Shown one piece after another: positions 5,005 through 27,157 of a DNA stretch of 41,079 nt; within the stretch, counting starts at the first letter, position 1; each line of letters starts with the position of its first letter. The notes below the pieces were generated by a model. The model did not search any database and was not told the DNA's origin. It was given only the letters and a program-made list of their open reading frames with translations. The DNA lies in contig NZ_KB910963.1 in the NCBI RefSeq assembly GCF_000383235.1, positions 1-41,079 of the forward strand, in the 5' to 3' direction. Made by a program: the position numbers and the translations under genes. This DNA comes from Bacillus sp. 123MFChir2. Its GTDB lineage: Bacteria > Bacillota > Bacilli > Bacillales > Bacillaceae_G.

Positions 5005-5881
5005 TCCGACTTCTGGTCGGGAGTTATTTAAGAAAAACTTACCAGAAGTACTACAAAAATTAGAACAAGCAGGGTATGAAGCATCATGTCATGCGACGAC
5101 GGGTCCTGGAGATGCGACTGTAGCGGCGAGGCAAGCGGCAGAGCGTAAGTTTGACGTTGTAATCGCAGCAGGCGGCGACGGTACATTAAATGAAGTTGTG
5201 AATGGGTTAGTTGGAAATGAACATCGTCCAAAGTTCGGAATTATTCCAGTTGGCACAACAAATGACTTTGCTAGGGCGATTGGTGTACCTCGTTCAATTG
5301 AAGAAGCTGTTGATATCATTTGTGCCGGCCAAACGGTACCTCTTGATCTTGGAAGAGCAAATGATACATATTTTATTAATATTGCAGGCGGTGGCCGCAT
5401 AACTGAATTAACATACGAAGTACCAAGTAAATTAAAAACAGTACTTGGACAACTTGCGTATTATTTAAAAGGGATTGAAATGTTACCATCCTTACATCCA
5501 ACATATGTAGAAATTGAATATGATGGAAAAATATTACGAGAAGAAATTACAATGTTTTTGATTACAAATACACGCTCAGTCGGCGGCTTTGAAAAAGTAG
5601 CGCCATATGCTTCTATTAATGATGGTTTATTTGATTTATTAATATTGAAAAAAGGATCAATTGCCGACTTAATTAAAGCAGCGACACAAGCGCAGCGCGG
5701 TGAGCATATCAATAATCCAAAAGTGTTATACACACAAGCAAATCGAATCAAAGTACATTCAACAGAAAAATTAATGATTAATTTAGATGGTGAATACGGC
5801 GGTGATGCACCGATGGAATTTGAAAATGTGTATCACTGTTTGGAGTTATTTATTCCAGAACATAAAGAAACTACCTTGTAA
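4979..5881 (+). CDS. dagK: Diacylglycerol kinase (DgkB type)
   Basis: A 300-aa soluble diacylglycerol kinase of the DAGK catalytic family; it phosphorylates diacylglycerol, a by-product of lipoteichoic acid synthesis, back to phosphatidate. The N-terminal ARIIYNPTSG, the nucleotide-binding GGDGTLNEVVNGL (about 65-77) and PVGTTNDFAR (about 93-102) are all present, and the length is normal. The N-terminus MKRARIIYNPTSGRE matches that of the B. subtilis protein as I remember it, and an in-frame stop lies 7 nt upstream, so this start is firm despite the missing ribosome site. See the overlapping upstream frame. Confidence 0.95.
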   Translation: MKRARIIYNPTSGRELFKKNLPEVLQKLEQAGYEASCHATTGPGDATVAARQAAERKFDVVIAAGGDGTLNEVVNGLVGNEHRPKFGIIPVGTTNDFARAIGVPRSIEEAVDIICAGQTVPLDLGRANDTYFINIAGGGRITELTYEVPSKLKTVLGQLAYYLKGIEMLPSLHPTYVEIEYDGKILREEITMFLITNTRSVGGFEKVAPYASINDGLFDLLILKKGSIADLIKAATQAQRGEHINNPKVLYTQANRIKVHSTEKLMINLDGEYGGDAPMEFENVYHCLELFIPEHKETTL

Positions 5882-5895
5882 GAGGTAGTTTTTTT
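5868..5895 (+). terminator. Terminator of dagK
   Basis: AAACTACCT pairs with AGGTAGTTT around the stop codon and is followed by a T-run. Confidence 0.85.
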
Positions 5896-5917
5896 GTGAA
5901 GATGGGAAAACTTTTTA

Positions 5918-6206
5918 GAGGGTGAAAGCAGGTCATATTTTGTTCTGTCTAGCAGTGGTTCATATAGAGAGGGGAAGTACCACATGTCCATCAAGTTAAG
6001 GTTTTGAAATATCCTCAAGCAAAAAATTTATATCTCTACAGTTATTTATGAGAATTTAGCTCGGTTTTTTCGTTTCGGGGAAGAATGTATTTTTTAACTT
6101 GATTTCGATGAGTTCTTATCAACTAAATGATATAAAAACCACGCTAAGACATTAACCGCTTCTCTGAACGCTAAGCATAAAATTAGTTAAATAATTTACT
6201 GATAAC
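5918..6206. other. Gene-poor stretch with a faint R1 tail
   Basis: Bases 5918-5962 (GAAAGCAGGTCATATTTTGTTCTG...) resemble the tail of R1 repeats. The remainder up to 6206 shows only short frames on both strands and no clear promoter or hairpin that I can support. Confidence 0.35.
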
Positions 6207-6365
6207 CTAAGAATAGCATTGGTTACTTTTTGCTTTTCCAATACCATCAATTTTGTTCTTTGTAAAATGAATTCCTTTAACTAATTCATTTCCGAGCGAA
6301 TCAAGTGTATCCTGTAGCCCGAAAAAATTATTTTCATATGTAAGATCTAATAATATACTTACTAC
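6207..6365 (-). pseudogene. Gene remnant without a start
   Basis: On the minus strand an open frame of about 52 codons (includes NNFFGLQDTLDSLGNELVKG, ends SNQCYS) has natural-looking composition but no start codon with a ribosome site. It is probably the decayed end of a gene. I do not recognise the family. Confidence 0.3.
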
Positions 6366-6405
6366 TTATGGTTTCTACACATTACGAGTCTTATCTCTTT
6401 TTTGT

Positions 6406-7551
6406 TTAAAAGCGATGTTTTTTTGCCATCGGTTCTATACATGTATTTAGTATCCAAGTTAATACTTTCCATACCTTTTGTTGATTAGGTGGCAAATGAG
6501 CGTGATACATATAATTGTATTCAATCTGCTGTTTTGCACCACGATTTCGTTTGAACTCACCAGCCCCAGCACTACAATGACAAATTAAATCTTTTTCGAT
6601 AGAATCCATTGTAATAAGGAGGGAAAGAATACGGTATAAGCCTTGTTGCTGATCAGAGTTTGTATTATAGCCAAGGATAGGAGTTGTCATAACTCCATCC
6701 CTAATAAAATAAGCAATGACACCATCTATTGTATCTCCTTTTTTTATGGCCTTTATCTCAAATAAATGATGCTGAAGAGCATTCCATAAATAAGCGGGTG
6801 TAAACATTGGATTATAACCGGAATATTTTTCAATATATAGTTGGTTGTATAACTTGGAAATTTGTAAAATATCTTCTTTTGTAAATCCTTCATTCGTAAT
6901 TATTTCATAATTGCTTTTCTCTAATAAACTTTTATCGTTTAATAAGTCTTTTCGTTTTTTTCGATTCATTTCTTTATAGTGCTTTGGATCAAATAAGTAT
7001 ATAGAACGAGACATAATTTTATTGTAACCTACTGTAGATAATGCTTGTGTAATTGTGGGATATAATTCGTTATTTAAAGAGCGAAATAGAATTGTATGCT
7101 CTGGAAATTTCTCAACAAATAAATTCGTAATCTGTTCGATTTGTTGTTTGTTGATAGAATGATAAAGATTTGTTGAAAGCATCCAATTATTTACGACAAT
7201 TACTTTATTAATATTCGTTCGTCGTAGCCAACTTCCCATAAGATGAATCGGATAGGTTAGTAGCTTCTCTAGCCATGGTTTTTTTAACTCCCATAACTCT
7301 TCTAATGCATAGGATATGTAATGTGTATAAGGGGAACATACATATGAATTTTCGAACTCCGCGTTATTAATAGTAACTGGCAAGATGAGATCATCAATTT
7401 CTAATAGAAATAGATGAGTGTTAACATTTTTAATAAATGCTGTAACGCCCTTTTGAAAGAGAGGCAGGAAGCTGTCTCGTACATATGCTCCATCTTTTTT
7501 TGAGGCCCAGTCAATGCTATGCAAGGAATGAATATTATGTAGCTTAATCAT
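6406..7551 (-). CDS. GNAT/FemAB-like acyltransferase, last gene of biosynthetic operon
   Basis: A 381-aa protein without signal peptide. Its C-terminal half (about 190-340) has the look of the duplicated GNAT fold found in FemAB and BioF2-like acyltransferases: basic NRKKRKDLLN, then ISKLYNQLYIEKYSGYNPMF, a DGVIAYFIRDGVMTTPILGYN beta-sheet pair, and GAGEFKRNRGAKQQIEYNYMY near the end, where family members place the aromatic substrate-binding residues. It likely attaches an acyl or aminoacyl group in the pathway of its five upstream neighbours. Its ATG overlaps the preceding stop (ATGA). Family call is moderate, substrate unknown. Confidence 0.6.
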   Translation of the reverse strand: MIKLHNIHSLHSIDWASKKDGAYVRDSFLPLFQKGVTAFIKNVNTHLFLLEIDDLILPVTINNAEFENSYVCSPYTHYISYALEELWELKKPWLEKLLTYPIHLMGSWLRRTNINKVIVVNNWMLSTNLYHSINKQQIEQITNLFVEKFPEHTILFRSLNNELYPTITQALSTVGYNKIMSRSIYLFDPKHYKEMNRKKRKDLLNDKSLLEKSNYEIITNEGFTKEDILQISKLYNQLYIEKYSGYNPMFTPAYLWNALQHHLFEIKAIKKGDTIDGVIAYFIRDGVMTTPILGYNTNSDQQQGLYRILSLLITMDSIEKDLICHCSAGAGEFKRNRGAKQQIEYNYMYHAHLPPNQQKVWKVLTWILNTCIEPMAKKHRF

Positions 7552-8885
7552 ATATGTTCACCATGCTTTACAAGGCTTTCTATTCTTTTTAATTTTTTAT
7601 CATATAATTGAATATCGTAATGTGAAAAGAAAAAATATGGTATAGCACACTTTTTAGTAGACCACAGTGTATGTAACTCTTGTATTACATTTAATTTACA
7701 TGATTTGAGATGTTTAGGTGGTACTTTAAGTTTAATTTCAACTTTGTCTATGCTGTGCTGCACTACTTTAAATTCTTGAATTTCATTGGATGCAAACAAA
7801 ATTGCTCTTCGAATGAAGTCAGGAAAAATAGATATCTCACTATTATCCAATTCACTTATTCCAATAAATATATCATCGCATCGACCATCAATTCGTTCTA
7901 AGGCTAAGAAGGGAGAACCACAGATGCACGCCGTTTTTTTCTCAATTAATATGTCATTGAGACGGTAGCGTATTATAGGCTGTGTTTTCCTCATGAAATC
8001 AGTAATAATGGGAACGAATATCCCGTTTTCCTGATCTAAGTATTCTTTTTCAATATGAACGAGATCTTCATTGATGTGTAATGTACCCTGTCTGCAGGTG
8101 GTAGCAAGAAAACCTTCTGTACATTGGTAAATTTGGTGTACTGTCTGTTGGAAAGTTGCACGAATAAACTCTCTATCAATATCTTCAAGCACTTCTGCTA
8201 CAGAGATAATTTTTTGGGGACAAATCATAATAAGTCCTTCTTGTTGCCAGTAAGCGATTTTTCGTAACATAGACGGAGGTGCAATTAAAATAGATGGATT
8301 TACTTCATTTAATCGAGTGATATGCTGATGAAACGAATCTAGTAAATCAAAAAAATGAAATGAGATTCGCTTATTTTTTGTTGCTTCGTATAAATTGCTA
8401 TTTGCACGTAAGAAAAAAGCAATCGTGTGTTTATGTAGAATGCTAGAAGGAAGCACCTTTCCAATAATCGAGCCAGCCCACAACGTTTGTTCTTTCTCGG
8501 AAACGAGAAAAACCCCACGATTTCCACTAGTGCCTGATGATAACCCGACAGTTATATCACGAATTGTTGGAGAGAAATTTCGAGTCTTTTCTGCTTCAAA
8601 TGCTACACGAAATGCTTCTTCCTTTGAAATATCAACTGTATTTAATATATCAAAATGTTCCATCATTACTTCTTTATCAATGATAGGGAGTGCAGTAAAA
8701 TTTCCCTTTTGAATTTCTTTTAAAAAAGGAGTATATAACTGGCGATAGAAGGGAGACGTCTCTATAGTAAACAAAAGTTGTTTTTTTATTTGTTGTTTAT
8801 GAAACAGTTCCAATTGTTTGCGATCTGAAAATCGAAAACAATATTTTGTTTTCAAGTATTGCTGGAGAATCCGTAATTTATTCAT
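7548..8885 (-). CDS. PaaK/F390-synthetase-like adenylate-forming enzyme
   Basis: About 445 aa from the chosen ATG, which has AGGGGTG 7 nt upstream and overlaps the preceding stop by 8 nt; a longer frame exists upstream but lacks a ribosome site. Motifs are those of the phenylacetate-CoA ligase/coenzyme-F390 synthetase branch of the ANL superfamily: the P-loop-like VGLSSGTSGNRG (about 125-136), QCTEGFLATTC near 260, IIRYRLNDIL near 315 and the hinge region LERIDGRCDDIF. It should activate a carboxylate as an acyl-adenylate, then as a thioester or amide. The substrate cannot be read from sequence. Confidence 0.8.
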   Translation of the reverse strand: MNKLRILQQYLKTKYCFRFSDRKQLELFHKQQIKKQLLFTIETSPFYRQLYTPFLKEIQKGNFTALPIIDKEVMMEHFDILNTVDISKEEAFRVAFEAEKTRNFSPTIRDITVGLSSGTSGNRGVFLVSEKEQTLWAGSIIGKVLPSSILHKHTIAFFLRANSNLYEATKNKRISFHFFDLLDSFHQHITRLNEVNPSILIAPPSMLRKIAYWQQEGLIMICPQKIISVAEVLEDIDREFIRATFQQTVHQIYQCTEGFLATTCRQGTLHINEDLVHIEKEYLDQENGIFVPIITDFMRKTQPIIRYRLNDILIEKKTACICGSPFLALERIDGRCDDIFIGISELDNSEISIFPDFIRRAILFASNEIQEFKVVQHSIDKVEIKLKVPPKHLKSCKLNVIQELHTLWSTKKCAIPYFFFSHYDIQLYDKKLKRIESLVKHGEHI

Positions 8886-9729
8886 AGTACACCCCTGTTT
8901 TAATTTTATTCCATGTGTGTTCACAGTGAGTTGGTAGAATTTCAATCTCAGGTGATATTTGCGATAAATGGTGTAACTTCTCAATATTCTTTCGGTAAGA
9001 TTTTGGATCGCTAGTTAAAAGGTTGGCAACCTTACTAGGAAATACAAGGTTTTTATAAGTTTTACTTAGCCACACTGCGTCTGCACAAAGAAAGACAATT
9101 TTATTACTATGTAAATGGACGAATAGACCAAATTGTCCAGTTGCATGTCCTGTTAAGTCAACAGCAAGTAAGGAGCCATCATCAAATACATCGTAGCCTT
9201 CTTCAAATTTTCCATATGTAGGGGGGAAGTTAAGGGATGGAGTTCGATCAATGAATGTCATCCTTTGCTCTAAATCAATCGGCAGTGTATCTTTTAGGCA
9301 CCCTTTTAATAGAGCTCCAAATTTACTTCTCTGTTTTATATCCTCATAAGCTTTGGCGAAGGTTAGTATTTTGGCTTTTGGAAAGTCGGGCAGACCAGCT
9401 GTATGATCGCCATGAAAATGAGAAAGAATAATATATTTAATTTCTTCTGGCTGAATACCATCAAGAAGCAGTTGCTGTTTAATAGATTGCTCTTCCGTAA
9501 AATGAACAGGGGTAAGTTTTGCATACACAGAGTAAGGGAATTTTTTTGTTGCTTCTTTAAAGTGTCCAGCATATCCAGTATCAAATAAAATATACCCTAA
9601 GATTGGATGCTGAAGTAATCCTACTGTAGCTGGAAAACGGATTTGTTTCCAACTGCCCTTGGAGTATGCAATTTTTTCTGGATGTGTGCAATAGCCTGTA
9701 TCATATAGCTTTAAAGATTTGATTTTCAT
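8878..9729 (-). CDS. Metallo-beta-lactamase-fold hydrolase
   Basis: A 283-aa protein with the dizinc motif HFHGDHTAG (HxHxDH, near residue 104), a later GHATGQFGLF histidine, an aspartate in FLCADAVW and a C-terminal LPTHCEH. This is the arrangement of the AHL-lactonase/glyoxalase-II type of MBL enzymes, which open lactones or cleave thioesters. In this operon a thioesterase, lactonase or cyclase step on the pathway intermediate is plausible. The start is the ATG overlapping the epimerase stop (ATGA) with GGTGG upstream; a start four codons earlier is less likely. Confidence 0.85.
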   Translation of the reverse strand: MKIKSLKLYDTGYCTHPEKIAYSKGSWKQIRFPATVGLLQHPILGYILFDTGYAGHFKEATKKFPYSVYAKLTPVHFTEEQSIKQQLLLDGIQPEEIKYIILSHFHGDHTAGLPDFPKAKILTFAKAYEDIKQRSKFGALLKGCLKDTLPIDLEQRMTFIDRTPSLNFPPTYGKFEEGYDVFDDGSLLAVDLTGHATGQFGLFVHLHSNKIVFLCADAVWLSKTYKNLVFPSKVANLLTSDPKSYRKNIEKLHHLSQISPEIEILPTHCEHTWNKIKTGVYYE

Positions 9730-10712
9730 TGTATTTTCCACCAGTCTACAAATTTTGTAATTCCTTCTTCTATACTGATCTTTGGAGCATATCCTAGTTC
9801 TTTTTTAGCTTTATCAATACTTAATGTCTGACTTTTTGAAAGGACACTAACAGTATATTTTGTGAGAATAGGTTCTTTTCCGAATAAAATAGTTTTTGAA
9901 ATTTCTTCTAGTATAGTAGCTAGTGTAAAAGCAGTTTTGTAGGAAATTTTTTTATATTGTATCTCCTTATCAAGGCGTTTCATTACATTTTCAATGACCT
10001 CATATAAATTTACACGTTCGTCATTTGTTATATTATATTTTTGTCCTAATGTATGTATTGGGGAATGCATACAAAGAAGTAAGGCATCTACAACATTCTC
10101 GACATATGTAATATCAACAAGAACATTTTCTGTACCAATTCTCGGTAGGGCACCTTTTTCGCATACTTTAATAAGACGTGGAAGAATAGCGTTATCTCCT
10201 GGACCGAATAAAGCGCGTGGGCGTATCGTGATAACTGGTAAACCATGAGTGAAAGCTTGATCAACAGCTTGTTCAGCGATGTACTTCGTTTTTGCATAAT
10301 GATTTACAAATGTATTAGGAAGTTTCGCGTTTTCTACTACATCTTGTCGTTCATCATAATAGAAATAAATACTTGGTGTTGATACATGGATAAGGCGTTT
10401 TATACCGGACTTTTGACTTCCCTCAATAATATGTTTTGTTCCTAACACATTCGCATTGTAAAAATCTTTATATTTGCCCCAAGGGGAAGAAAGGGCGCCG
10501 CTATGAAAGATATAATCTTTATCTTTACAAACTTGTAGAACACGATTCCTGTCTTCAAGAGGACAATGTACAAACTCAATTCCATTTTGTTCTAATAATT
10601 TCCCGATTGTTTTATTTCTCCCAATTGCCGTTACTTCATAGCCCATATTCATCAATCGAAAGGCGAGTTTTTGTCCTAGAAAGCCCGTTCCGCCAGTTAC
10701 TAGCATTTTCAT
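9726..10712 (-). CDS. NAD-dependent epimerase/dehydratase (extended SDR)
   Basis: A 328-aa extended short-chain dehydrogenase with the N-terminal NAD-binding motif VTGGTGFLGQKLA, the SGALSS region, and the catalytic YAKTK (YxxxK, about residue 138) preceded by the usual serine in VSTPSIYF. It resembles the 3-beta-hydroxysteroid dehydrogenase/OleD side of the family as much as sugar epimerases. Next to a condensing enzyme, reduction of a beta-keto acyl product is a reasonable role. The ATG overlaps the ATP-grasp stop (ATGA) with GGTGAA upstream. Confidence 0.85.
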   Translation of the reverse strand: MKMLVTGGTGFLGQKLAFRLMNMGYEVTAIGRNKTIGKLLEQNGIEFVHCPLEDRNRVLQVCKDKDYIFHSGALSSPWGKYKDFYNANVLGTKHIIEGSQKSGIKRLIHVSTPSIYFYYDERQDVVENAKLPNTFVNHYAKTKYIAEQAVDQAFTHGLPVITIRPRALFGPGDNAILPRLIKVCEKGALPRIGTENVLVDITYVENVVDALLLCMHSPIHTLGQKYNITNDERVNLYEVIENVMKRLDKEIQYKKISYKTAFTLATILEEISKTILFGKEPILTKYTVSVLSKSQTLSIDKAKKELGYAPKISIEEGITKFVDWWKIQ

Positions 10713-11872
10713 AAATTTTCACCATCCCATGATATGTCATATGTTGTTTGCTCTAAAATAGTCCGTTCATGTTTATAACTTTCACGCCATAATTTATACA
10801 TGCTAAAAAATTGATAAAAAAATGATTTCCTATCAGTGTGACTATAAATGATATCTGGATAGGAGCATAGAACTTTTAACCATCGCTTACGTTTTTGTTT
10901 ACTTTTTAAGTAGGGGAGGCCATATAAAAGCATTGCTAACCGAATTGCACACTCAGAATTTAGTTTTGGAATTAGTGTATTGTTTACTTTTGTATTAAAA
11001 AAAGCGGATAATATTTCCTCATCGAATAAATGTAATCCACTTGTGGTACGTGGATTACATTCAATTGGAATAGCCTCTCCATTCTCTGTAATGATAAAAT
11101 CAAAGGCAATTTGTCCAGAGAAATCTAGCTCTTTTACAATATGCCTAACAAACTGTTCAATTTTAGGATGATTAATATGTTTAAATGCAATGGTAGCGCC
11201 TAGGCCTGCCGTGAATTCCGTTTTATAGGTAGAGTGAGCTAACACTTTCCCAGATTGTGCGATACTGTAGGAGCAATGCTGTGTTCCCTGTATAAACTCT
11301 TGAATGATATAATCTGACTTGTCTACCATGATTTCTTTTATAACAGCCTCTTTTGTAATAAATTCCACTTTATCAGAAAAACGAGAGAAAATCGGCTTTA
11401 GCACAAAAGGAGTAGTGGCTGGTCTTTGGTGAATCATTGACCTTATGGCTTGTTCATTATTTATTCTATACGTTGCAGGAACTTGCCAACCTAAATCCGC
11501 CACTAATTGAATAAATTCCCACTTGTTATGGAGTAATGAAAGTTTGTTAAAATCATCTACTAATACATGACAAAATGGACTTAATTTTTCTTTATGTCTA
11601 GATATATAAAATATTTCTTCACAAGTAGGAATAAGTAAATCCACATTGTGGCGTTGAATAATTGATAGCAGCGCATGGATACTTTCATTTGTTTTCCACT
11701 TTGGAGAAGGAATTTCATAAAAGTAATCAGTACTTGTTGAAACTTTGCTTAATGGATAAGGAATACTATCTGCAATAATAACGGTATGTCCGGTGTTATT
11801 AAACAGTCTGCATAAATGTAAAGCCGCTGGTGCACGTGCCCCTGTAATTAATACTGTTTTCTTAGTACTCAA
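10709..11872 (-). CDS. ATP-grasp ligase (carbamoyl-phosphate-synthase-like)
   Basis: A 387-aa ATP-grasp protein: an N-terminal Rossmann-like lobe (VLITGARAPAALHL), a central domain with the ATP-binding lysine in PFVLKPIFSRFSDK, YIIQEFIQG, and the metal-binding AFDFIITENGEAIPIECNPRT (given here as FDFIITENGE...IECNPR). These enzymes join a carboxylate to an amine or thiol through an acyl phosphate. Start is TTG, 11 nt inside the upstream gene, with GGGGG ahead; no other start precedes the beta-strand. It probably ligates an amino acid or other amine in the pathway. Confidence 0.85.
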   Translation of the reverse strand: MSTKKTVLITGARAPAALHLCRLFNNTGHTVIIADSIPYPLSKVSTSTDYFYEIPSPKWKTNESIHALLSIIQRHNVDLLIPTCEEIFYISRHKEKLSPFCHVLVDDFNKLSLLHNKWEFIQLVADLGWQVPATYRINNEQAIRSMIHQRPATTPFVLKPIFSRFSDKVEFITKEAVIKEIMVDKSDYIIQEFIQGTQHCSYSIAQSGKVLAHSTYKTEFTAGLGATIAFKHINHPKIEQFVRHIVKELDFSGQIAFDFIITENGEAIPIECNPRTTSGLHLFDEEILSAFFNTKVNNTLIPKLNSECAIRLAMLLYGLPYLKSKQKRKRWLKVLCSYPDIIYSHTDRKSFFYQFFSMYKLWRESYKHERTILEQTTYDISWDGENL

Positions 11873-12851
11873 GAAGGATGCCCCCGATAGAAAGTCCTGC
11901 AGAAGTACCTAGCAATAATATTTTATCTCCGCGTTGCACTTTCTTTTGTTTAATCGCTTCGAAAAGGGCGACTGGAATAGATGCGGAAATCATATTACCG
12001 TAGTCTTCAAAAATGGTCATAAAGCGCTCTTCATCAACTCCTAATTTTTTACGAATCAGTCTCATAGCTGGTCCACTTGCTTGGTGAGGAACAATTAAAT
12101 CAATATCATCTAGGGAATAACCAGTATGCATAAGTAGTTTTTCGATAAAATTCAACATATATTTAGAAGATAGTTTAAAAATAGCTCTGCCATTCATATC
12201 GAACAGGAAGTCTTCTTTTCGCTCTTCGCTATATTCTCTAGGATGAATCATCGTTCCACCGCCACGAATTTCTGATAGATGCGCACCAGAGCTATATGTT
12301 TCCATATGGGAAGCTATAATGGAAGATGTATGATCGCTTTTTGTTATCACAACAGCTGCCGCACCGTCACCGAATAAAATGCTGCTTTCATTTTGTCCCC
12401 AATTTAATCCCACAGAAGAAATTTCAGAAGAAATGATAACAACATTTTTGTATCTCCCGCATTCAATTGCGTAAGAAATTGTATCAAGTGCTGTTATGAA
12501 ACTTAGGCATGTTGAGTTGATATCAAAACATGGAATACCAGAGTGCTGTAGTCCGAGCTGTTCTTGAATAAGTGATGCAGTAGAAGGGATTGCTTGTTGA
12601 ATCGTTCCGCTTCCGCAGATGATACAATCGATATCAGCCCATGTTAACTTAGCATCTTCTACAGCTTTTTTTGCAGCTTCAGCACCCATATAAGAAGATG
12701 TTTCACCATCAGCAAAGTATCGTGTTTTTACCCCGGATTTTTTTAATGTCCAGCCTTCTGGTACATCTAGCATGCGATCTATTTCAAAAGAATCTACTTT
12801 TCGTTTTGGAAAATATGTGCCAATTCCTTTTATTCTAATATATCTTTTCAT
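11862..12851 (-). CDS. KASIII-like beta-ketoacyl synthase (FabH family), first gene of operon
   Basis: A 329-aa thiolase-fold synthase. The catalytic triad is intact: cysteine in DINSTCLSF (about 115), histidine in VPHQASG (about 255) and asparagine in DYGNMISAS (about 289). The C-terminus has GTSAGLSIGGILL. Housekeeping FabH normally has a HQAN motif; here it is HQAS, and the gene sits in a six-gene operon rather than with fab genes, so a specialised condensation (secondary metabolite or Ole-type head-to-head condensation) is more likely. AGAGGCG precedes the ATG. Confidence 0.88.
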   Translation of the reverse strand: MKRYIRIKGIGTYFPKRKVDSFEIDRMLDVPEGWTLKKSGVKTRYFADGETSSYMGAEAAKKAVEDAKLTWADIDCIICGSGTIQQAIPSTASLIQEQLGLQHSGIPCFDINSTCLSFITALDTISYAIECGRYKNVVIISSEISSVGLNWGQNESSILFGDGAAAVVITKSDHTSSIIASHMETYSSGAHLSEIRGGGTMIHPREYSEERKEDFLFDMNGRAIFKLSSKYMLNFIEKLLMHTGYSLDDIDLIVPHQASGPAMRLIRKKLGVDEERFMTIFEDYGNMISASIPVALFEAIKQKKVQRGDKILLLGTSAGLSIGGILLEY

Positions 12852-12885
12852 TCTTTATCGCCTCTTAATCTTTTTGTAAATTTTA

Positions 12886-12898
12886 AAATTATATTATA
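12886..12898 (-). promoter_or_regulatory. Possible proximal -10 of the biosynthetic operon
   Basis: On the minus strand two overlapping TATAAT hexamers lie about 40 nt before the KASIII ATG, without a convincing -35. Confidence 0.25.
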
Positions 12899-12982
12899 TC
12901 TATATATTTTTACGAAGGGATGTGGGGAGTTTTTTGTGAAATTTGGGTACTCCCTTAGGGCCTTCTGGTAATGTTTCTCTGC

Positions 12983-13020
12983 AAAAAAGAGCAAGTTCTC
13001 AAGTAGAGAATTTGCTCTTT
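12983..13020. terminator. Terminator-like hairpin in the operon leader
   Basis: AAAAGAGCAA-GTTCTC pairs with GAGAAT-TTGCTCTTTT around AAGTA and has A/T runs on both sides, so it can terminate in either direction. It stands between two divergent transcription units, where no ordinary 3' end is expected. If the operon starts from the distal promoter near 13080, this would be an attenuator in its leader. Confidence 0.7.
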
Positions 13021-13079
13021 TTGCATGAGAGTTCTTCAAATATATAATCTAGAAAAAACTCTTATATCAGTCTAATTAT

Positions 13080-13107
13080 ATTATAACAATTATATGAAAA
13101 TGTTTAA
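13080..13107 (-). promoter_or_regulatory. Possible distal sigma-A promoter of the biosynthetic operon
   Basis: On the minus strand TTAAAC, a 16-nt spacer and TATAAT are seen, about 225 nt upstream of the KASIII start. The -35 is weak. Confidence 0.35.
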
Positions 13108-13140
13108 TAGTATTTTTTCATAAATTAAAGTAAATATGTG

Positions 13141-13347
13141 CAATGATAGAATAGAAAACGAAGTACGAGCTTAGGTGAGATGATATTTTACTGGCCAGCG
13201 AATATAAACACATGGAATGAACTCGTAAAAACTCATACAAACTTTGATTTGATAAATTAGGGTTTTTCGCTTTGTTTGTTCTTGGGCTATCGTCACATGC
13301 CCATCGAGTTAAAATCTCATACCACCCCCAGAGAGAAACCTTTCGGA
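13141..13347 (+). other. Structured non-coding stretch upstream of gabT, unexplained
   Basis: No coding frame is convincing. ACGAGCTT (13164-13171) can pair with AACTCGT (13220-13226), and TGGGC pairs with GCCCA (13284-13288 and 13299-13303). A -10-like TAGAAT at about 13147 precedes it and a strong terminator follows. It may be a small RNA, the enhancer region for the sigma-54 activator, or the relic of a mobile element end. Confidence 0.4.
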
Positions 13348-13392
13348 TAAGTCATTAAAGACTTGTAACAAGTCTTTAATGACTTGTTTTTT
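13348..13392 (+). terminator. Strong terminator upstream of the gabT promoter
   Basis: AAGTCATTAAAGACTTG pairs perfectly with CAAGTCTTTAATGACTT around TAA and is followed by seven T. There is no annotated gene in front of it on this strand, which implies a non-coding transcript or insulation of the sigma-54 promoter. Confidence 0.85.
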
Positions 13393-13437
13393 TATGTCGA
13401 AACGTCTGGAAACATGAGGGATCGTGCATTTATAAGT

Positions 13438-13452
13438 TGGCACACATTTTGC
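13438..13452 (+). promoter_or_regulatory. Sigma-54 (-24/-12) promoter of gabT
   Basis: TGGCAC, five bases, TTGC: an exact match to the sigma-54 consensus, 40 nt before the gabT ATG. It fits the activator with a sigma-54 interaction domain encoded two genes downstream. Confidence 0.88.
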
Positions 13453-13491
13453 ATTATAAAAGGCAAATGACTAAAAGAGGTGGAGAATATC

Positions 13492-14853
13492 ATGAAAACA
13501 AATTTTGCGAAAGTTAATGAAAATATTCCGGGTTCAAAGGCAGCTTCTTTATTTGAACGCCGTCAAAATATTGTACCAAGAGGAGTAAGTAATGGAATTC
13601 AAACATTTGTACAATCGGCTCAAGGAGCGCTTGTGACAGATGTAGATGGAAATCAGTTTATCGACTTTGCGGGGGCAATCGGTACAATTAACGTCGGACA
13701 TTGTCATCCGGCCGTTACGGAAGCTCTTCATAAGCAAATCGATCAATATATTCATACAGGTTTTAACGTAATGATGTATGAGTCGTATATAGAATTGGCA
13801 GAAAAGCTAGCTACGCTTGCACCAGGTAATTTTGATAAGCAAGTTTTATTTTTAAATAGTGGAGCGGAAGCGGTTGAAAATGCAGTGAAAATTGCTCGTA
13901 AGTATACGAAACGAACAGGGATTATTGCCTTTACAAAAGGGTTTCACGGCCGCACATTAATGACGATGACAATGACAAGTAAAGTAAAGCCATATAAAAA
14001 CGGATTTGGTCCATTTGCACCAGAAGTGTATAAAGCACCGTTTCCTTATGAATATCGCCGACCAGATGGATTAACAGAAGAGCAATATGAAGATTTCATT
14101 ATTGAAGAGTTTAAAAATTTCTTAATCACAGAAGTTGCACCAGAAAGTATTGCTGCTGTTGTGATGGAGCCAGTACAAGGAGAAGGCGGCTTTATTGTTC
14201 CGGGTAAAAAGTTTGTGAAAGAAGTACACCGTTTATGTGCTGAACATGGCATTTTGTTCGTTGCTGACGAAATTCAAACAGGATTTGGCCGTACAGGGAA
14301 ATATTTTGCGATTGACCATTACGATGTTGTACCAGATTTAATTACGGTATCGAAATCGCTAGGGGCAGGCGTGCCAATTAGCGGTGTAATTGGCCGAAAA
14401 GAAGTAATGAATGAGGCTGCGCCGGGTGAATTAGGCGGAACGTATGCTGGAAGCCCATTAGGATGCAGCGCTGCATTAGCTGTTCTTGATGTAATGGAGA
14501 AAGAAAATTTAAATGAAAGAGCTGTGCATATTGGAAAAGTAGTGATGGATCGTTTTCATCAAATGGCTGGAAAATGTGAATGCATTGGTGATGTTCGCGG
14601 ATTAGGAGCGATGTGTGCCTTTGAATTAGTGAAAGATAAAATGACGAAAGAACCGAATAAGGAACTAGCTGGTAAGCTTATTGCAGAAACAAATAAGAGA
14701 GGCTTGTTGCTATTAACGGCAGGTACGTACGGAAATGTCGTGCGTGTTTTAATGCCGCTTGTAATTACGGATGAGCAGCTTGAAGAAGGGCTTATGATTC
14801 TAGAAGAGTCGCTGCAATCTTGTTATGGAAAAGTAGATAAAGCGCACGTGTAA
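13492..14853 (+). CDS. gabT: 4-aminobutyrate aminotransferase
   Basis: About 453 aa, class-III PLP aminotransferase that converts GABA and 2-oxoglutarate to succinate semialdehyde and glutamate. Visible are NVGHCHPAV, NSGAEAVENAVKIAR, FHGRT, the PLP-pocket aspartate in VADEIQTGFGRTG and the Schiff-base lysine in TVSKSLGAGVPISG. ATG with AGAGGTGG upstream is preferred to an in-frame GTG four codons earlier. It is driven by a sigma-54 promoter and followed by gabR and gabD, so GABA catabolism is the assigned role. Confidence 0.95.
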   Translation: MKTNFAKVNENIPGSKAASLFERRQNIVPRGVSNGIQTFVQSAQGALVTDVDGNQFIDFAGAIGTINVGHCHPAVTEALHKQIDQYIHTGFNVMMYESYIELAEKLATLAPGNFDKQVLFLNSGAEAVENAVKIARKYTKRTGIIAFTKGFHGRTLMTMTMTSKVKPYKNGFGPFAPEVYKAPFPYEYRRPDGLTEEQYEDFIIEEFKNFLITEVAPESIAAVVMEPVQGEGGFIVPGKKFVKEVHRLCAEHGILFVADEIQTGFGRTGKYFAIDHYDVVPDLITVSKSLGAGVPISGVIGRKEVMNEAAPGELGGTYAGSPLGCSAALAVLDVMEKENLNERAVHIGKVVMDRFHQMAGKCECIGDVRGLGAMCAFELVKDKMTKEPNKELAGKLIAETNKRGLLLLTAGTYGNVVRVLMPLVITDEQLEEGLMILEESLQSCYGKVDKAHV

Positions 14854-27027: not shown

Positions 27028-27060
27028 ATATATACAAAAAAAGCTAATATTCATTAGTTT

Positions 27061-27130
27061 CCCCCATAGTCCAGCAATTTCCGGTTGCCAGGTAGAGACT
27101 CTCGATCCATATCATCAAGTATATATGAGG
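27061..27130 (-). ncRNA. Purine riboswitch aptamer (guanine type)
   Basis: On the minus strand the purine-aptamer core is clear: CCTCATATA (P1 side), GATATGG, GTCTCTACC, a P3 hairpin, then GGACTATGGGGG. The J3/1 position that sets specificity is C (GACTATG), as in guanine-sensing aptamers, not U as in adenine ones. It precedes a terminator and nupC. Repression of nucleoside uptake by guanine or hypoxanthine is inferred from the family. Confidence 0.93.
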
Positions 27131-27157
27131 TAACACCATCCGTATGCAATTAGTAGT

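Follow-up and report, generated by a model that had tools for sequence, protein, structure and literature searches.

A horizontally transferred six-gene operon in Bacillus sp. 123MFChir2, with a four-gene core and a predicted amino-acid module

What might six enzymes make together when each of their genes overlaps the next? This question is raised by an operon on the minus strand of a 41,079-nt stretch of Bacillus sp. 123MFChir2 (NCBI RefSeq assembly GCF_000383235.1, contig NZ_KB910963.1, positions 1 to 41,079; hereafter “the window”). In their order of transcription the genes are called K, G, S, M, F and N. They code for a KASIII-type ketosynthase, an ATP-grasp ligase, an extended short-chain dehydrogenase/reductase (SDR), a metallo-beta-lactamase (MBL)-fold hydrolase, an adenylate-forming enzyme and a tandem-GNAT transferase. 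The six-gene set is a mobile cassette that has been horizontally transferred, and it consists of a core, K, S, M and F (KSMF), and an add-on module, G and N. Its function can be proposed more tentatively. With somewhat less than even confidence, we favor a mobile two-module operon in which KSMF would build a hydroxy-acyl core, by fusion or extension of chains, to which G and N would add amino acids.

Architecture, transfer and modules of the operon

All six open reading frames (ORFs) are intact and adjacent frames overlap at each of the five junctions, by 11 nt (K-G), 4 nt (G-S), 4 nt (S-M), 8 nt (M-F) and 4 nt (F-N), as had been claimed in a sequence-only reading of the window. The S-M value applies to an ATG start of M at 9729, and becomes 16 nt with the upstream GTG start. 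In the two closest Paenibacillus copies, compared with M at its GTG start, the spacing of the junctions is the same as in the window. By simple longest-ORF gene calls over the window and its relatives, 35 of 57 adjacent K-G pairs overlap by exactly 11 nt, and 32 of 53 adjacent G-S pairs by exactly 4 nt. Compared with these two Paenibacillus copies, the six genes of the window have ratios of non-synonymous to synonymous substitution rates (dN/dS) of 0.10-0.29. For 24 loci all six genes could be called cleanly; there, the pairwise distances of the proteins show correlations of 0.74-0.86, which fits joint travel, though kinship of the hosts also contributes.

The operon and its neighbor dagK differ in their closest relatives. 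The operon proteins are 83-95% identical to the copies of Paenibacillus sp. SC116 and P. arenosi, but DagK of these two is only 55-56% identical to that of the window, so that the window copy must have moved between lineages recently. In Ectobacillus, DagK is 89% identical to that of the window (the closest among 299 genomes), while the operon proteins reach only 50-73%. The 89% figure agrees with a host of the Bacillus type, and suggests that the 299 genomes included none of the B. cereus group. Moreover, among 32 window proteins searched, the SC116 locus was matched by the six operon proteins only. In two relatives that lack F (DagK about 86% identical), the order gatA-gatB-dagK is followed by rlmD, with a gap of about 170 nt in one and a single deacetylase-like gene in the other (about 0.2-0.9 kb). 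The corresponding interval of the window spans 21 kb (5882-27269) and holds the operon and the gab genes; the whole of it looks like an accessory zone. The operon had earlier been described as accessory and as lying between the core loci dagK and gabT. The first part of this description stands, while gab is not a core neighbor, as dagK leads on to rlmD in the two relatives.

To follow the conservation of the gene order, an alignment of F was run against 84,980 species genomes, and the best 80 loci of at least 592 stretches (at least 583 confirmed) were taken. Together with eight plasmid loci and the window they amount to 89 sequences. One of these (L007), which had been fetched for N and carries no F, was dropped, so that 88 loci remain, a sample picked by F similarity and rich in Paenibacillus. 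The order is KGSMFN in 48 loci, KGSMF in 20 and KSMF in 7, with 13 other or cut-off sets. The KGSMF(N) order is thus kept in 68/88 loci, and all of K, S, M and F occur in 79/88. In 74 rows the sequence extends 6 kb or more to either side of F; these comprise 41 KGSMFN, 18 KGSMF, 6 KSMF and nine others. K, S, M and F were also found together in eight of the ten loci of another scan, the exceptions being L007 and L129; all but L007 had been fetched for F or a KSMF stretch. N is accompanied by G in 52 of the 54 rows that bear it, and G occurs without N in 21.

Single loci display the modules apart from each other. On a Deinococcus plasmid (L007, 7745-10092), G and N overlap each other, and K, M and F are all absent from the 19-kb stretch. 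On a Rhizobium plasmid (L132), KSMF is followed by a DUF3419 protein at the place of G, presumably BtaA-like, and then by N, with no G in the stretch. In a stretch of a Pseudomonas plasmid (L129), F and G are present and K, S and M are absent. Elsewhere, KSMF is joined by a PAP2 protein, a fatty-acid hydroxylase and a desaturase in Escherichia coli, by a sulfotransferase and a TetR regulator in Paracoccus and Ketogulonicigenium, and by N, a Rieske protein and an opposite-strand G in Shinella, Rhizobium and Roseateles. Because the partner genes vary around KSMF from locus to locus, KSMF is the core, G and N are an add-on module, and the remaining partners are tailoring genes, often of a lipid or oxidative type. 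Single-linkage BLAST joined flanking proteins of 32 loci in one cluster, 27 entries of which lie immediately downstream. The cluster member from L018 proved to be a classical SDR, and so did the genes that were scanned downstream in L050 and L075.

Two Paenibacillus loci depart from these arrangements. In P. castaneae (L074, 11314-12474), a second G, 32% identical to that of the window, lies between F and N, and a Rieske protein follows N. In P. woosongensis (L020, 8767-9980), K is reduced to a short fragment ahead of M and neither G nor S was found; the operon of this locus therefore looks deleted or misassembled.

The core enzymes

K (11862-12851, minus strand), the first gene, codes for a thiolase-fold ketosynthase that scores 652.9 bits against the NCBIfam model NF005541/PRK07204 (cut-off 402) and has the catalytic triad Cys115/His256/Asn286, kept in 28/28 sequences. 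In a profile search of the PDB, its closest solved relatives are MxnB (4v2p, E 4e-104) and CorB (4yuc, 1e-100), the alpha-pyrone ketosynthases of myxopyronin and corallopyronin, followed by FabH (nearest entry 3e-84). A tree of 51 sequences places K and MxnB/CorB in one group (support 99/99), apart from the FabH-type copies of six carrier genomes, and K falls below the cut-off of the fabH model TIGR00747 (250.5 versus 292.1 bits). K further shares with MxnB/CorB the Cys-His-Asn triad and an EIRGGGT region, where the aligned FabH has a deletion. MxnB fuses two beta-ketoacyl chains by use of Cys121, and its Thr322 lies near the junction of two tunnels (PMC5724707). By our reading of the alignment, Thr322 is matched by Thr316 of K, which is kept in 26/28. 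K most likely groups with the chain-fusing ketosynthases of the MxnB/CorB type, and a fusion activity is predicted for it on the basis of its sequence.

Several observations weigh against chain fusion by K. The tree program issued a long-branch warning on the MxnB/CorB and FabH rows. K also passes the FabH-subfamily model NF006829, with 262 bits at a cut-off of 249, and this score, together with the position of K as a mere sister of MxnB/CorB, leaves room for an ordinary malonyl extension. In addition, MxnB and CorB join chains that are made by a polyketide synthase (PKS) and bound to a carrier (PMC5724707), whereas the K operon has no PKS or carrier protein but has S, M and F. Neither partner is found among the six products, with 18 of the 40 ORFs of at least 100 aa scanned elsewhere in the window. 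The earlier statement that carrier protein, exporter and regulator are absent likewise agrees with the Pfam and NCBIfam searches, which returned none among the six products.

M (8878-9741 from the GTG start, or to 9729 from the ATG, minus strand) is an MBL-fold hydrolase (PF00753) of a lactonase-like kind. Its nearest solved relatives are N-acylhomoserine lactonases. The metal ligands HxHxDH, His199 and Asp221 are present in 32/32 sequences and His272 in 31/32. At Trp224, invariant in 32/32, the lactonase GcL has a tyrosine; the active-site tyrosine of these lactonases is Tyr194 in AiiA. In NCBIfam, M is matched best by an AHL lactonase, though far short of the cut-off; against the AttM model it scores 93.7 bits, below the cut-off of 390. 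F (7548-8885 from its ATG, minus strand) resembles PaaK and F390 synthetase. It exceeds the cut-off of TIGR02304 (F390 synthetase-related) by far, with 710 against 251.9 bits, and its nearest solved relative is PaaK (4r1l). An SSGTSG motif is present in the window protein, and a C-terminal lysine (430 of the aligned sequence) is invariant in 8/8.

With F of the PaaK type and K equipped with the FabH triad and a score above the NF006829 cut-off, the operon might alternatively work in the manner of the Pseudomonas quinolone signal (PQS) pathway, a reading that we consider unlikely. F would then load an aromatic or fatty acid onto coenzyme A (CoA) and K would add one malonyl unit as FabH or PqsD does; S would reduce the beta-ketone, M would serve as a thioesterase in the role of PqsE, and G and N would add amino acids to the beta-hydroxy acid. 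An MBL thioesterase acts in the pqs pathway, and pqsABCDE likewise combines a KASIII-type enzyme, a ligase and an MBL hydrolase; the SDR, G and N are not known to have a pqs counterpart. However, the profile of K prefers MxnB/CorB far over PqsD (3h76), which is matched at only E 4e-48. M is nearer to lactonases, and no entry of the name PqsE occurs among the 34 PDB sequences that match it at E≤1e-5. A PqsE-like M was rejected, as such a protein is absent from its close solved relatives.

S (9726-10712, minus strand) is an extended SDR resembling OleD and 3beta-hydroxysteroid dehydrogenases, and is a probable ketoreductase. Its catalytic residues Ser111/Tyr139/Lys143 are kept in 29/29 sequences and its nearest solved relative is 6jkg, a sterol-4-alpha-carboxylate 3-dehydrogenase. 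The best NCBIfam match of S is OleD (239 bits), and a second OleD-type model scores it at 225 bits. These matches and the lactonase-like M recall OleABCD, as in both cases a ketosynthase, an OleD-like SDR, an ATP-dependent adenylating enzyme and a hydrolase stand in one operon, so that the four core activities run parallel. Along these lines, K would make a 2-alkyl-3-keto acid, S would reduce it, F would take the part of OleC by forming a beta-lactone, and M, as a substitute for OleB, would open this lactone or process it.

We regard such a course as very doubtful. OleA and PpyS depend on a catalytic glutamate (PMC4578411, PMC7064751), and the rule for OleA is Glu117 followed by proline; MxnB and CorB have valine at this position (PMC4578411). 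In K the position is taken by isoleucine in 23/28 and by leucine in 5/28, followed by proline in 28/28, so that none of the 28 has the Glu-Pro pair of OleA. The 239 bits of S lie far under the OleD cut-off of 580, F belongs to TIGR02304/PaaK, and M is of the MBL fold. None of the six proteins matches an OleC model or an alpha/beta-hydrolase, as would be expected of OleC and OleB, in Pfam and NCBIfam at E≤0.001 (for K and S, among the best 25 NCBIfam rows). Membership of K in OleA and of F in the Ole set is ruled out by the Glu-Pro test and the family scores. Of the parallel with OleA, OleD and OleC drawn in the sequence-only reading, the SDR therefore stands, with OleD as its best model below cut-off, while the parts concerning K, which lacks the glutamate and groups with MxnB/CorB, and F, a TIGR02304 protein, have to be given up.

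The amino-acid module and the proposed pathway

G (10709-11872, minus strand) is an ATP-grasp ligase and probably forms an amide with an amino acid. It scores 566.7 bits against NF005315/PRK06849 (cut-off 406), and the ATP-grasp-type residues Lys117, Lys159, Asp258, Glu271, Asn273 and Arg275 are present in 27/27 sequences. The active sites of the synthase, SDR, MBL and ATP-grasp proteins, described earlier as intact, are thus conserved across the aligned relatives. With an AlphaFold model of G (predicted local distance difference test, pLDDT, 91.3), Foldseek ranks PylC first, 2pn1 (a carbamoyl-phosphate synthetase (CPS)-like protein) second, RizA fifth, an L-amino-acid ligase of B. licheniformis ninth and BacD eleventh. 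G shares with PylC, RizA and BacD the ATP-grasp fold and the conserved ATP/Mg-type residues; it differs from PylC in being only 18-19% identical to it in the structural alignment, and its amino-acid substrate is predicted.

N (6406-7551, minus strand), the last gene, matches no Pfam or NCBIfam family, and its assignment as a tandem-GNAT transferase of the FemX/MprF kind comes from an AlphaFold model (pLDDT 95.1) and Foldseek. The top neighbors are Sba18/Sbb17, MprF and L-PGS, with FemX lower (best E 2.8e-9, probability 1.00). N shares the tandem-GNAT fold with the aminoacyl-tRNA-dependent transferases MprF, FemX and Sba18, but a profile search finds no related PDB sequence for it (sole match E 0.064). 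At the presumed CoA loop of the GNAT fold, placed by secondary structure, N has G-[L/F/V]-Y-R (Gly-Leu-Tyr-Arg in the window), with Tyr and Arg in 33/33. As a match to [QR]xxGx[GA] occurs elsewhere in N in 21/33 sequences, this loop is weak evidence. The earlier labels hold for F, with PaaK as its nearest solved structure, and for N, whose Foldseek neighbors fit its description as FemAB-like.

Since the best folds are PylC, with other amino-acid ligases near it, for G and mostly tRNA-dependent transferases for N, both may add amino acids. The structural searches also return neighbors that speak against this assignment. Those of G include PurK (from rank six) and CPS (from rank 12), the TM-scores (TMq) of N to tRNA-dependent enzymes are low (0.41-0.53), and a GNAT of unknown function ranks fifth for N, with plain GNATs from rank 21. 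N as an ordinary acetyltransferase was considered and rejected; it has no family match and its best fold neighbors are tRNA-dependent transferases, though plain GNATs follow.

From folds, residues and genomic context, the following reactions, their order and their substrates are proposed. F would activate a carboxylic acid by adenylation, converting the free acid into an acyl-AMP and further into a thioester or another acyl-transfer product. K would carry out a Claisen condensation, likeliest by joining two acyl or beta-ketoacyl thioester chains as MxnB/CorB do, without a glutamate of the OleA type. The beta-ketone formed in this way would be reduced by S, which yields an alcohol, and M would hydrolyze a thioester or lactone intermediate and release the hydroxy acid. 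G could then form an amide between a carboxylate and an amino acid, and N might attach another acyl or aminoacyl unit, for which aminoacyl-tRNA is the probable donor. The product is likely an amino-acid-bearing lipid or a small polyketide; the lipid-type partners of the E. coli version (PAP2, fatty-acid hydroxylase, desaturase) count for a lipid-like reading. A biosynthetic set had already been recognized in the sequence-only reading, which had KASIII condense and the SDR reduce, followed by adenylation, amine addition and acylation. That outline is retained here as far as biosynthesis is concerned, and is recast as a KSMF core with an amino-acid module of G and N.

It is improbable that the operon instead carries out an ordinary modification of membrane lipids. 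Its product would then be a hydroxy fatty acid capped with an amino acid, comparable to ornithine lipids, and K would do no more than prime an uncommon fatty acid. The FemX/MprF-like N, the amino-acid ligase-like G, the DUF3419 neighbor in L132 and the sulfotransferases and desaturases at other loci would suit this role, but a patchy distribution, transfer between lineages and two ATP-dependent activating enzymes would be out of the ordinary for a housekeeping lipid.

A wider extension of the two-module proposal would be a new class of natural products. Its acyl cores would be fused head to head by KSMF without a PKS or carrier of its own and would receive interchangeable caps (G+N, DUF3419+N, sulfotransferase, or hydroxylase/desaturase), and the class would have spread horizontally across phyla. 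We hold this to be a conceivable but rather unlikely outcome. Chain-fusing ketosynthases and amino-acid-capped lipids already exist as kinds.

Genomic setting and spread

The operon is flanked by a 19-nt direct repeat with two copies in the window, TTAACTTGATGGACATGTG on its left (5981-5999, minus strand) and TTAACTCGATGGGCATGTG on its right (13294-13312, minus strand). The copies are identical at 17/19 positions; against the two copies in the window, 0.02 are expected, for a pattern that was chosen after both had been seen. Stretches of 29-55 nt similar to the right-hand copy occur on four Peribacillus/Priestia plasmids; on the two Priestia plasmids, IS4-family transposase genes begin or end some 75 nt away, and on the two Peribacillus plasmids the stretches are not directly beside such genes. 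We take the flanking repeats to be possible remnants of IS231-like ends. A cassette with inverted insertion sequence (IS) ends was ruled out, as both repeats have the same orientation. There is no exact match in IMG/VR, and a 17-nt form of the repeat is absent from 135 loci. No close plasmid copy of window positions 5800-14000 was found by megablast in 72,556 plasmid records, and no close phage copy in a phage collection that holds two weak relatives of F (about 25% identity).

About 130 nt upstream of the start of K, at 12984-13022, lies a 17-nt inverted repeat (94% complementary), which could be a terminator or an attenuator. A scan of the window revealed no regulatory RNA at the operon at the Rfam gathering threshold. 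Promoter sites are no more frequent than in shuffled sequences (31 versus 33.2) and terminator sites show no excess (4 versus 3.9). Besides the operon, the interval between dagK and rlmD contains gabT, a sigma-54 regulator, gabD, an M29 peptidase, two polysaccharide deacetylases, an extracytoplasmic function (ECF) sigma/anti-sigma pair and nupC. The sole Rfam match in the window is a purine riboswitch at 27047-27148 (minus strand, 76.1 bits), upstream of a gene for a NupC-type nucleoside transporter.

F above its cut-off was found in 80/198 genomes of the order of a Paenibacillus genome (G002), in 6/299 of the order of an Ectobacillus genome (G001) and in 6/299 of a phylum-wide sample, samples which count their center genomes, already known to carry F. 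In E. coli, K, S, M and part of F of the species' own version match 672/5,426 complete genomes (megablast), and 671 of the 673 matching places are chromosomal. This version has seven genes (L003/L127), KSMF and the three lipid-type partners, directly after narI, a neighborhood that was read in two records; strain ABU 83972 has it between narI on one side and tRNA-Tyr genes on the other. Relatives of the core occur in many soil bacteria, across Bacillota, Pseudomonadota and Fusobacteriota, and also in assemblies of chlamydiae (KGSMF) and of cyanobacteria, in which SMF was seen.

No paper on the operon and no described product were found in the open-access literature, a search whose coverage leaves out most subscription journals and all preprints. 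Each of the enzyme families is known, with those of K, G and F (PRK07204, PRK06849 and TIGR02304) curated without a pathway. As far as these searches show, neither the KSMF combination nor the modular partners that go with it nor its spread has been described in the open-access literature. Identification of the product would give a function to a gene set as widely spread as the counts from the order of Paenibacillus (80/198) and from E. coli (672/5,426) indicate, and with two modules and a likely chemistry now known, this product is directly testable.

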